Part shown: piece by piece, positions 10,033-57,210 of the stretch | How the letters are laid out: every line of letters starts with the position of its first letter | Position numbering within the stretch: position 1 is the first letter of the stretch | Source of the DNA: Bacteroidales bacterium | GTDB lineage: Bacteria > Bacteroidota > Bacteroidia > Bacteroidales > VadinHA17 | Assembly (NCBI GenBank): GCA_030596125.1 | Contig: JAUVKT010000005.1 | Span: 1-57,773, forward strand | Reading direction: 5' to 3' | Length of the DNA: 57,773 nt | The notes under the pieces: generated by a model | The model's database searches: none | Told to the model about the DNA's origin: nothing | What the model saw: the letters and a program-made list of their open reading frames with translations, nothing else | Position numbers and translations under genes: made by a program

Positions 10033-10207
10033 ATGTCAAATGTCAAATGTCAGATGTCAGATGTCAAATGTCAAATGTTAGATGTCAAATGTCAAATGTC
10101 AAATGTCAGATGTCAAATGTCAAATGTCAAATGTTAGATGTCAAATGTCAAATGTCAAATGTCAGATGTCAGATGTCAAATGTCAGATGTCAAATGTCAA
10201 ATGTCAA
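10033..10207. repeat. Tandem heptamer satellite, 25 units of ATGTCA(A/G)
   Basis: Counting base by base gives 25 head-to-tail 7-mers, mostly ATGTCAA with ATGTCAG variants and two ATGTTAG units. The ATGTTAG units are the 7th and 15th, eight units apart, which suggests block duplication of about 56 bp. Because 21 bp is seven codons, the array creates false ORFs of repeated MSNVKCQ. It joins directly onto composite repeat copy 1. Confidence 0.95.
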
Positions 10208-10210
10208 ATG

Positions 10211-10300
10211 AAGATTGAGGATTGCCGACTGAAGACTGCCGACTGCTTTGCCCTTCCGAAGCTTGAAACGAAGTGGAGAGCGAAGGAGGGCCGACTGCTA
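10211..10300 (+). repeat. Composite intergenic repeat, copy 1
   Basis: Degenerate heptamers (GAAGATT, GAGGATT, GCCGACT, GAAGACT, GCCGACT) lead into the conserved core TTTGCCCTTCCGAAGC...GCGAAGGAGGGCC and end with GACTGC. The same core is found at 19314-19372 in this orientation, and at 35887-35945 and 57007-57065 inverted. The outer edge of the core touches the 3' end of the GNAT gene; the satellite side faces away. The core termini GCCCT and AGGGC are complementary. Confidence 0.9.
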
Positions 10301-10828
10301 TTAGTGCGGACTATCTGAAATAAGCTGAAAAAGCAATTCGTCCTTAAACGAGTTATCAGATCGTATCCACTCTTTTTTTACACCAGTCTGTTTAAACCCC
10401 AGCCTGGTAAACAATTTGATACTGTCACTATTATCACTTAAAATGTTACAGTATATCTGGTGTAACTTAAGTCTGTTGAAGCAATAATCAATCATAAACT
10501 CAACAGCCATAGAAGCGTAACCCTTCTTTCTTGAACCGGGTTCTGCAATTAAAATACCTATACCTGCGCGCAGGTTTAAAGGGTCGAAATCGAACAGATC
10601 TACAGTGCCTATTGTAATGCCGGATGAAATTCCCCCAATCATTAATCTGAGTTGTCCCGATTCAAATATGCTCTGTTTTGAATTTTCAATATATTTTCTG
10701 AGAGCAAATTTTGAAAATGGGGTAAGAGTATTGCTTAGTTGCCAGATGGATGTATCATTTTCCCATTTGTATAATAGCTCAAGATCTTCAGGCTCAGGGG
10801 CACGTAATATCAGGTCTTTATAGCGCAT
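10301..10828 (-). CDS. GNAT family N-acetyltransferase (RimJ/RimL-like)
   Basis: 175 residues. The pattern LRAPEPEDLELLYKWENDTSIWQ, then IGTVDLFDFDPLNLRAGIGI, and the acetyl-CoA-binding stretch GSRKKGYASMAVEFMIDYCF (R/Q-x-x-G-x-A type loop) are typical of the Acetyltransf_3 group. NSDSIKLFTRLGF is the usual C-terminal half. Substrates in this group include ribosomal protein termini, polyamines and antibiotics, and none can be chosen here. The final codons and the stop (SDSPH, TAA) run into sequence resembling the adjacent repeat's heptamers, so the C-terminus may have been reshaped by the repeat. Confidence 0.88.
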   Translation of the reverse strand: MRYKDLILRAPEPEDLELLYKWENDTSIWQLSNTLTPFSKFALRKYIENSKQSIFESGQLRLMIGGISSGITIGTVDLFDFDPLNLRAGIGILIAEPGSRKKGYASMAVEFMIDYCFNRLKLHQIYCNILSDNSDSIKLFTRLGFKQTGVKKEWIRSDNSFKDELLFQLISDSPH

Positions 10829-19188: not shown

Positions 19189-19372
19189 AAGTGCCTAAAG
19201 TGCCTAAAGTGAAAAGTGACTAAAGTTTGAAGACTGAAGACTGCCTGCCCTGTGAAATACGACGGAGGAGTTATTTCTACAGGGAAGACTACCAATTGCC
19301 AACTGCCAATTGCCGACTGCTTTGCCCTTCCGAAGCATGAAACGAAGTGGAGAGCGAAGAAGGGCCAACTGT
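19189..19372 (+). repeat. Composite intergenic repeat, copy 2, with nested hairpin
   Basis: From left to right: an AAGTGCCTA/AGTGACTAAAG satellite (19189-19225); GAAGACT heptamers; a nested inverted repeat, CCCTGTGAAATA (19248-19259) against TATTTCTACAGGG (19272-19284); more heptamers (GAAGACT, ACCAATT, GCCAACT, GCCAATT, GCCGACT); then the conserved core (about 19314-19372). Order and polarity match copy 1. The core edge is 12 bases from the end of the glycosyltransferase gene (19385). Confidence 0.88.
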
Positions 19373-35886: not shown

Positions 35887-36057
35887 AGGCAGTCGGCCCT
35901 CCTTCGCTCTCCACTTCGTTTCAAGCTTCGGAAGGGCAAAGCAGTCAGCAGTCTTCAATCTTAAAACTTTAGTCACTTTTAACTTTAGTCACTTTAGTTC
36001 ACTTTAGTCACTTCTTCATTTAGTCACTTCTAACTTTAGCTCACTTATAACTTCTTT
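35887..36057 (-). repeat. Composite intergenic repeat, copy 3 (inverted)
   Basis: Read on the plus strand: GGCAGTCGGCCCTCCTTCGC starts the core, which runs to GGAAGGGCAAAGC. GCAGTCAGCAGTCTTCAATC heptamers follow. A degenerate ACTTTAGTC/ACTTTTA satellite extends to about 36057. The satellite is the reverse complement of the AGTGACTAAAG satellite of copy 2, so order and polarity are conserved. The core edge faces the terminator and 3' end of the zinc-ribbon gene. The satellite ends just before the hutU promoter box. Confidence 0.88.
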
Positions 36058-55107: not shown

Positions 55108-55186
55108 TGTTTTATTTAGTATTCCTGTTCAGCTATTGTTAAATGTATTATATTGGTCTGGAAAACCTGATATTAAATTTTTTAAC

Positions 55187-57007
55187 ATGCTATCCAAACA
55201 CAACAAAACACTGTTATTGAGTCTATTCTTTATTGGAGTTACAATTTCGGGTAAAGCCGATACAGAAAAGAGAGTTGTTATTCTGCATACTAATGATATG
55301 CATTCCCGGCTGGATGGATTTGCCCCTTCAGGGGAGTATTCGCCTCTTACTGTAAATGACGATAATACGATCGGAGGTTTCAGCCGGATTGCCGCCATAT
55401 TGAATAATGAAAAAAGTAAAGACCCCTCCTCTACGCTTGTTGTTGATGCAGGTGATTTTCTGATGGGCACAATATATCACTATATGGAGGAATATAACGG
55501 TTTTCAGTTACCCCTGATGAAGGATATGGGGTATGAATTTGTTGCAATAGGAAATCATGAGTTTGATTACGGACCGGATAAATTGGCCCTTATTATTGAA
55601 AAATCTGTTTCCGGAGGCGAGATTCCGCATCTTCTGCTTACAAATGCCGTCTTCGATGATAAAAATGATGAAGACAACAGATTTGAAGCTCTGTTTGACA
55701 GAGGAATTATTACCCGTACCGGCATAATAGAGAAGTCAGGAGTAAAGATCGGTCTCTTTTCACTTATGGGTGTCGATGCTGATGATGTAGCACCATTTGC
55801 ACCTCCTGTAACATTTGCCCGGCAAAAGAGGAGTGCAAAAAAAGCTGTTAAGCAGTTAAAGAAGGAGGGATGCGATATCATTATATGTTTGTCGCACAGT
55901 GGTGTGGAAAAAAATAAGCATGGTGAATGGGATGGTGAAGATGTAAAACTGGCCAAAAAGGTAAAAGGTCTTGACCTGATAATAAGCGGACATACCCATA
56001 CTGTACTTACTGAACCGGTGTTTGTAAAAGGCACACCTATTGTGCAGACAGGCGCCAACGGTTGTAATGTCGGCAAACTCGAAATATTAGTTAATAGTGA
56101 TGGGGTAACGGTAGAAAACTACACTCTCATTCCGGTTAATGACAATGTGAAAGGTGACGAGGAGATTCAGGCAAGAATAGATGGTCAGAAGAGAAAAATA
56201 TCCTCAAGTTTGTTTGAACCCCTGGGTTATGATGTAGAATCAGATTTGATCAGATCAGGGTACGAACTTCTATGTGACGAGTATGGAGACCTGGAGAATA
56301 GTAATCTTGGTCCCCTTGTTGTAGATGCAATCCATTCCTATATTAATATAAATAGTGCTGCAGGTACTGATATCAGTATGGTTGCTGCCGGGGTTATCAG
56401 GGACAGGGTGCCAACGGGGATGCTTTCGGTGCAGGATATTTTCAGGGTTGTGTCTCTTGGCTCCGGTGAAGATAATATTCCGGGCTATCCTCTTGCAAGG
56501 GTTTATGTAACCGGGATAGAGTTGAAAAGAATAGTTGAAATATTACTTGTTGCCTACAAATCGAGTCCGTCAAACTACTGCTATTATTCAGGGCTTGAAG
56601 TAGATTATAACCCTGATAAAGGGCTATTACGCAAAGTGAAATCTATCAGTATTACGGATAGTGATGGAGTGTCAACACCTGTTGACCTTAATAAGAAAAA
56701 TGAGAAATTGTATTCTGTCAGTGCAAATGTCTATATGCTTGAGTTTATCGGGATAATTAAGAAGACCACATTCGGACTTGTTAATGTTACTCCAAAGCAT
56801 GCTAATGGTGAACCGGTAGCTGACATGAAAAAGTCTGTTATTGATTTTGACAGGGAGCAGTCTGGTGTTCAGGAAGGTAAAGAGTGGATTGCGTTTGTTG
56901 AGTATCTGAAAAAAATGACAGATGTTGATGGTGACGATGTAGCAGATATGGATAAGTTTTATCTTAATCCTCCGCTAAGGATCAAGCCTGTGGGTATTTC
57001 AGATTAG
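55187..57007 (+). CDS. Bifunctional UDP-sugar hydrolase / 5'-nucleotidase family protein
   Basis: 606 residues from the ATG at 55187 (MLSKHNKTLLLSLFFIGVTI), which opens a signal peptide; the track's TTG at 55136 is rejected. The metallophosphoesterase domain has ILHTNDMHSRLDG, VVDAGDFLMGT, AIGNHEFDYGPDKL, CLSHSGVEKNKHG and ISGHTHTVL, giving all expected metal ligands. The C-terminal 5'-nucleotidase domain (about 360-600) includes LGPLVVDAIHSYI and YYSGLEVDYNPDKG. It hydrolyses nucleotides or UDP-sugars in the periplasm. Its TAG stop is formed at the junction with repeat copy 4. Confidence 0.92.
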   Translation: MLSKHNKTLLLSLFFIGVTISGKADTEKRVVILHTNDMHSRLDGFAPSGEYSPLTVNDDNTIGGFSRIAAILNNEKSKDPSSTLVVDAGDFLMGTIYHYMEEYNGFQLPLMKDMGYEFVAIGNHEFDYGPDKLALIIEKSVSGGEIPHLLLTNAVFDDKNDEDNRFEALFDRGIITRTGIIEKSGVKIGLFSLMGVDADDVAPFAPPVTFARQKRSAKKAVKQLKKEGCDIIICLSHSGVEKNKHGEWDGEDVKLAKKVKGLDLIISGHTHTVLTEPVFVKGTPIVQTGANGCNVGKLEILVNSDGVTVENYTLIPVNDNVKGDEEIQARIDGQKRKISSSLFEPLGYDVESDLIRSGYELLCDEYGDLENSNLGPLVVDAIHSYININSAAGTDISMVAAGVIRDRVPTGMLSVQDIFRVVSLGSGEDNIPGYPLARVYVTGIELKRIVEILLVAYKSSPSNYCYYSGLEVDYNPDKGLLRKVKSISITDSDGVSTPVDLNKKNEKLYSVSANVYMLEFIGIIKKTTFGLVNVTPKHANGEPVADMKKSVIDFDREQSGVQEGKEWIAFVEYLKKMTDVDGDDVADMDKFYLNPPLRIKPVGISD

Positions 57008-57210
57008 CAGTCCTCCCTCCTTCGCTCTCCACTTCGTTTCAAGCTTCGGAAGGGCAAAGCAGTCGGTAGTCCACAGTCTTCAGTCGGCAATCCGCAGTCG
57101 GCAATCCGCAGTCCACAGTTCACCAATTCTTCCAGTACCTGGTACCCGGTACCCGACACCCGACACCTGACACCCGGTACCCGGCACCCGGCACCCAGTA
57201 TCCAGCACCT
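57007..57210 (-). repeat. Composite intergenic repeat, copy 4 (inverted), with two heptamer arrays
   Basis: Plus-strand order: core GCAGTCCTCCCTCCTTCGC to GGAAGGGCAAAG (57007-57060), about nine CAGTCGG/CAATCCG/CAGTCCA heptamers (57060-57122), then about eleven GGTACCC/GACACCC/GGCACCC heptamers (57134-57210). The core edge starts at the stop codon of the nucleotidase gene. Nothing else was recognised up to the promoter box at 57295. Confidence 0.9.

Follow-up and report, generated by a model that had tools for sequence, protein, structure and literature searches.

A 44-bp sequence that recurs in the genome of this Bacteroidales bacterium is probably an SDR-type mobile cassette, very small and non-autonomous, which would have spread recently both by riding in minitransposons (MITEs) and by being copied between arrays of seven-base repeats. 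Few kinds of mobile DNA seem to be smaller. Its copy number, its obligate heptamer context, its fixed orientation, the empty sites and its carriage by MITEs can all be read off directly. The window, meaning the whole stretch of 57,773 nucleotides that we analysed, forms a single contig in a draft genome of 2.70 Mb (165 contigs, 96% complete); for the genome-wide analysis we used about 0.7 Mb of sequence around the core copies.

A 44-bp core in a fixed heptamer slot

The core (TTTGCCCTTCCGAAGCNYGAAACGAAGTGGAGAGCGAAGGAGGG) had been noticed at four places in the window by a sequence-only reading, and a pattern search allowing mismatches found all four. Its 16-base head, TTTGCCCTTCCGAAGC, has four exact matches in the window plus one match with three mismatches elsewhere. 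Shuffled sequences are expected to give 0.23 matches at three or fewer mismatches, and none of 100 shuffles reached five; the four exact matches are far beyond chance. Copy 1, a T-type form (CTTGAAAC), occupies 44 bp at 10247..10290 on the plus strand. A single heptamer unit, CCGACTGC (10291..10298, plus strand), lies between it and a GNAT acetyltransferase gene on the minus strand (10301-10828), whose 3′ end points towards the core; this nearest heptamer is 2 bases from the stop at 10301. To the left of copy 1 are heptamer units TGCCGAC/TGAAGAC (10223..10246, plus strand), and outside these GACTG heptamers is a satellite of about 25 copies of AAATGTC (10033..10210, plus strand). Copy 2 (19321..19364, plus strand) has heptamer units on its left (19288..19320, plus strand), and the same array holds a second cassette, B (CCCTGTGAAATACGACGGAGGAGTTATTTCTACAGGG), a strong hairpin at 19248..19284 on the plus strand; a AAGTGCCTA/AAGTGACTA satellite (19189..19226, plus strand) belongs to this locus as well.

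The other two copies are on the minus strand. Copy 3 (35897..35940) adjoins heptamer units at 35941..35961, and its locus includes a AAGTGACTAAAGTTA-type satellite at 35965..36053, both on the minus strand. Copy 4 (57015..57058) is adjoined by one heptamer unit, AGGACTGC (57007..57014, minus strand), and by a heptamer array (57059..57119, minus strand), with a GGTGTCGGGTACC-type heptamer satellite at 57137..57196 on the minus strand. The first plus-strand base of the AGGACTGC unit also completes the stop codon (57005-57007) of a 5′-nucleotidase-like gene (55136-57007, plus strand). The order described from the sequence alone, heptamers and then a variable satellite on one side of each core, is thus correct for the window, with the satellite beyond the GACTG-type heptamers being AAATGTC, AAGTGACTA, AAGTGACTAAAGTTA or GGTGTCGGGTACC according to locus. 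The satellites at 10033-10210, 35965-36053 and 57137-57196 are also present at many loci that have no core. A scan of the window against Rfam gave no match above the gathering score.

The genome as a whole contains 39 cores, and a reversed control pattern found none. The mean pairwise identity of the 39 copies is 97.5%, and 21 of them are identical. About 17 lie within an element of roughly 200-385 bp (three of these in one tandem array), and the remaining 22, the array-type copies, have no MITE end; both this split and the gene calls come from our own scripts, run on a draft genome. The three tandem cores follow one another with a 52-bp period in a single MITE (L086; G000:C125:2416-2560). Heptamer units flank the core on the left in 39/39 copies and on the right in 37/39. 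The core always interrupts the NNRAYTG heptamers in the same register, GACTGC|TTTGCCC…GGAGGG|NNGACT, its immediate left flank being a heptamer unit plus one base in every copy (RAYTGC, one base variation allowed), and its orientation relative to the heptamers is constant throughout. Array-type copies sit off-centre in the heptamer run, the median number of units being 3 to the left of the core and 1 to its right, and this is the asymmetry seen in the window. The idea of a dispersed modular repeat with a fixed order therefore stands, and so does that of directed insertion, but it is the heptamer satellite, not the gene end, that directs it.

The same slot holds other cassettes. Cassette B (CCCTGTGAAATACGACGGAG...CTACAGGG) also occurs at C93 and partly at C25 and C121, and cassette C (CCGCCCGGATGACTCCGGTCGGACGGG) is a further hairpin in this slot. 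A fourth, cassette E (CCGCCCGAACGTACCGTTCGGTACGGGCGGG), likewise a hairpin, belongs to the sister genus g14; it has 52 copies in genome G013 and 54 in G023, and is absent from the source genome. Among the loci sampled (L255-L278, L215, L217, L218, L228 and L230, from G013, G023, G062 and G002), most copies of E read GACTGC-E-CCGACT (a GACTGC/GCCGACT slot), a few lie outside heptamers, and one (L228) has another hairpin nested inside. Fold z-scores are about -2 to -4 for B, C and E and range from +0.4 to -2.5 for the core, depending on variant and strand; the predicted hairpin of the core is weak, unlike those of the other three.

Heptamer arrays of the (RACTGNN) type are present in 14/40 relatives, representing 11/31 genera. 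The core family is found in three genera of its own family (5/117 genomes) and in no other genome of a 396-genome sample of the phylum; its pattern had no match in viral contigs. A scan of public genomes for the core returned only contig CSMAG_1571, with the same flanks as G013, and one match in Neorhizobium galegae.

The IS66-type carrier and the empty sites

The elements that carry the core end in GTAACTATTCAGTG...GACTGATTAGTTAC, also given as GTAACTAWTCAGT. They have terminal inverted repeats, GTAACTAATCAGT, in common with a full IS66 element of 1654 bp (L073:1394-3047; G000:C65), which encodes the only IS66 transposase in the genome (PF03050, 482 aa) and is bordered by an exact 8-bp duplication, gttttatt. 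This element lies at the 3′ end of an ATPase-like gene. We compared the flanking 8-mers of the 18 elements that have both ends, a count that includes core-less MITEs and the full IS element, and found matches at 117/144 positions against 60 expected (0/20000 shuffles reached this value). Exact 8-bp duplications border 7/18 of them, the IS66 element included. IS66 elements have ends starting with GTAA and make 8-bp repeats (PMC11946415); the 8-bp repeats are also listed in PMC3281130. Since the ends match those of the C65 element, 8-bp duplications are present and both are features described for IS66 (PMC11946415), the carrier is an IS66-type MITE, and the C65 element is likely the parent of these MITEs. 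In its GTAA-type ends, its duplications and the presence of one full IS66 element, the carrier resembles IS66-family MITEs; the difference is that the core also stands at 22 sites without any MITE end. GTAA ends are absent from the core's own boundaries, where it runs TTTGCCC...GGAGGG. Two of the MITEs (L064:9781-10071 and L087:66-436) share their upstream flank and differ downstream, a pattern that suggests segmental duplication or recombination between MITEs.

Comparison with loci lacking the repeat, which the sequence-only reading had proposed, revealed empty sites both in a core-less MITE and in sister species. The core-less MITE (C7) differs from filled ones (C107, C150) by a single 52-bp gap and otherwise by a few substitutions; the 52 bp consist of the 44-bp core plus the 8-mer TGGACTGC, which the filled MITEs have twice. 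Relative to core-less MITEs, the element at C43 is longer by the core alone, and at C18 one heptamer has been lost on balance. At an intergenic site shared within genus g12, the sisters G061, G033 and G062 have intact heptamers, AACTGCTTTTTGCCTTTTGCCAAC, reading AACTGCTTTTTGCCTTT(T)GCCAACATATATTAG, and G021 reads AACTGC-core-CTGACTGCCAACTTAAATATTAG; set against the sisters' intact array, the core of G021 stands in place of two heptamers. All of these length changes equal 45+7k bp, with k = +1 (C107/C150), 0 (C43) or -1 (C18, G021). By the evidence of the empty sites, the core appears to have been mobile recently. Plain 8-bp target duplication was rejected as the sole rule of insertion, the left and right 8-mers of the 22 array-type copies matching at 137 positions against 133.7 when shuffled (p 0.14).

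Possible routes of copying

The core interrupts a seven-base satellite with ...GACTGC ahead of it and NNGACT... behind it, never in the other orientation, and two routes could have brought it there. By the first, which is well supported, the core is carried by a MITE that the genome's only IS66-family transposase moves. We infer a second route, in which one heptamer array would receive a copy of the core from another. In its simplest form this would be recombination or template switching, with the heptamers on both sides acting as homology arms, a process expected to keep the 7-bp register and to change length by 45+7k bp. We favour this form because orientation and register stay the same from copy to copy, whereas the gain or loss of heptamers differs between sites. 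Some copies of the g14 cassette lie outside heptamers, so homology between heptamers cannot by itself account for the movement of all such cassettes. A broader reading, which we offer tentatively as possible rather than probable, is that heptamer satellites in Bacteroidota serve as landing platforms for mobile cassettes of less than 60 bp, each lineage amplifying its own by a dedicated process that keeps the register. The slot GACTGC^/^NNGACT would then be common to the core (cassette A) of this species, the hairpin CCGCCCGAACGTACC of g14 and cassettes B and C elsewhere.

Copying between arrays has to be weighed against true transposition, in which a transposase, perhaps the IS66 enzyme, would insert the 44-bp core into NNGACTGC and duplicate 8 bp, with heptamer slippage later blurring the flanks. 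The filled and core-less MITEs differ by exactly what this predicts, 44 bp and a perfect 8-bp repeat, and for the MITE case such an insertion fits equally well. The IS66 enzyme likewise makes 8-bp duplications, the period of the tandem cores (52 bp) fits, and there are matching flanks at C102 (AAGACTGC/AAGACTGC) and C112 (CCAACTGC/CCAACTGC). The array-type copies, however, have flanks that match no better than shuffled ones, the core has neither IS66 ends nor matching terminal repeats (TTTGCCC vs CCCTCC), and the G021 site has two heptamers missing, not one gained. We therefore regard true transposition as rather unlikely. It is still less likely, and in our view doubtful, that the core moves as single-stranded DNA through an HUH/Y1 enzyme in the REP/RAYT manner, with cutting beside GACTG and a hairpin needed. 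Such a mechanism would agree with the fixed orientation and with the strong hairpins of cassettes B, C and E, and it would need no duplication if the mobile unit were 52 bp long and ended in GACTG. The genome does have six Y1_Tnp matches, but the head of the core is absent within about 1.5 kb of all six, and the sole Y1 locus with a core nearby consists of a fragment next to a MITE. REP and REPIN sequences are defined by a GTAG or CGTC tag beside a palindrome (PMC3733652), and the 44-bp core has neither tag and only a weak hairpin. Identity with REP/REPIN was rejected on the missing tag and the lack of a Y1 gene flanked by the core. Copying through RNA and reverse transcription would suit very short units in many near-identical copies, but we found no RVT_1 reverse transcriptase in the 96%-complete genome and consider this route very improbable.

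Related repeats and the position of the core at gene ends

The closest known counterpart of the core is in cyanobacteria. SDR families were reportedly described by Elhai et al. in 2008 (Genome Research) from Nostoc punctiforme and related heterocystous cyanobacteria, as units of 21-27 nt that often form hairpins, are sometimes nested and lie in heptameric tandem repeats and minitransposons. They are said to have been recently mobile and to be confined to a small clade, and copying through RNA and reverse transcription is said to have been suggested for them. The core matches this description in being dispersed, shorter than 60 bp and embedded in heptamers, in having about 17 copies within minitransposons (the IS66-type MITEs), in its recent mobility as judged from empty sites and in its restriction to a small clade; nesting is seen in one copy of cassette E. 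It differs in length (44 bp, or 52 with one heptamer, vs 21-27), in its host, a Bacteroidota, in the weak folding of its main form and in that no reverse transcriptase was found. We know of no sequence relation between the core and the cyanobacterial SDRs. Because the core is longer, comes from another phylum and folds weakly in its main form, we read it as SDR-like and not as an SDR. To our knowledge, only cyanobacteria otherwise combine heptamer satellites with minitransposons and dispersed cassettes of such small size. Here the combination occurs in a phylum unrelated to theirs, and the empty sites are clean. Several pairs found here make it possible to test competing mechanisms for the multiplication of such small units: the core-less and filled MITEs, the empty sites of sister species, and the two sister lineages whose cassettes differ but occupy one slot.

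Two papers cite Elhai et al., one for SDRs as a class of short dispersed palindromic repeats (PMC3116915) and one for the precise insertion of SDR5 into HIP1 (PMC4390886). Direct repeats of another heptamer, TAACTGA, are described in part of a third paper from Beggiatoaceae, Cyanobacteria and Bacteroidetes (PMC4679880). They too form intergenic arrays, reach some Bacteroidetes and are lacking in neighbours; the heptamer is a different one, they mostly precede start codons in Beggiatoaceae, and that part of the paper describes no inserted cassette.

In the window, the outer edge of the core faces the 3′ end of a gene in 4/4 copies, as the sequence-only reading had pointed out. As a fixed polarity this does not extend to the genome, in which 22 copies have a 3′ end and 16 a 5′ end opposite their outer edge, and array-type copies in same-strand gaps split 7:3. 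A role in transcript 3′ ends had also been suggested, and selection might retain the core at gene ends as a terminator, an mRNA stabiliser or a processing site. In the window every copy does follow closely on the 3′ end of a gene, array-type copies beside a 3′ end lie close to it (median about 22 bp), and none of the 39 cores is inside a predicted gene of its own genome. Against this, the orientations are mixed, the core has no T tract and only a weak predicted fold, and it is missing from almost all relatives. At 35.9 kb, the upstream gene has its own hairpin resembling a terminator, T run included, between its stop codon and the core, so the core is dispensable as a terminator there. Cores also occur in coding sequence in a relative, as described below; these go against the proposal by the standard that the sequence-only reading had set itself, under which cores within coding regions would refute it. 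A 3′-end function is thus most unlikely, and we propose that closeness to gene ends reflects where satellites are tolerated.

In G013, two cores lie in frame in an NTPase-like gene (two paralogues), giving ...LSDFK-SAVHPPSLSTSFRASEGQSSPQSAI-KDLTPG..., and another NTPase-like paralogue in that genome is without the roughly 25 residues. Rickettsia palindromic elements (RPE) are short repeats inserted in frame in protein genes, and in this the G013 copies resemble them. They differ in that an in-frame core is the exception, nearly all cores being intergenic and tied to heptamers. The G023 orthologue of the NTPase-like gene has a different, unrelated insert at the same site, a C-rich/G-rich hairpin (L031, L034, L161).
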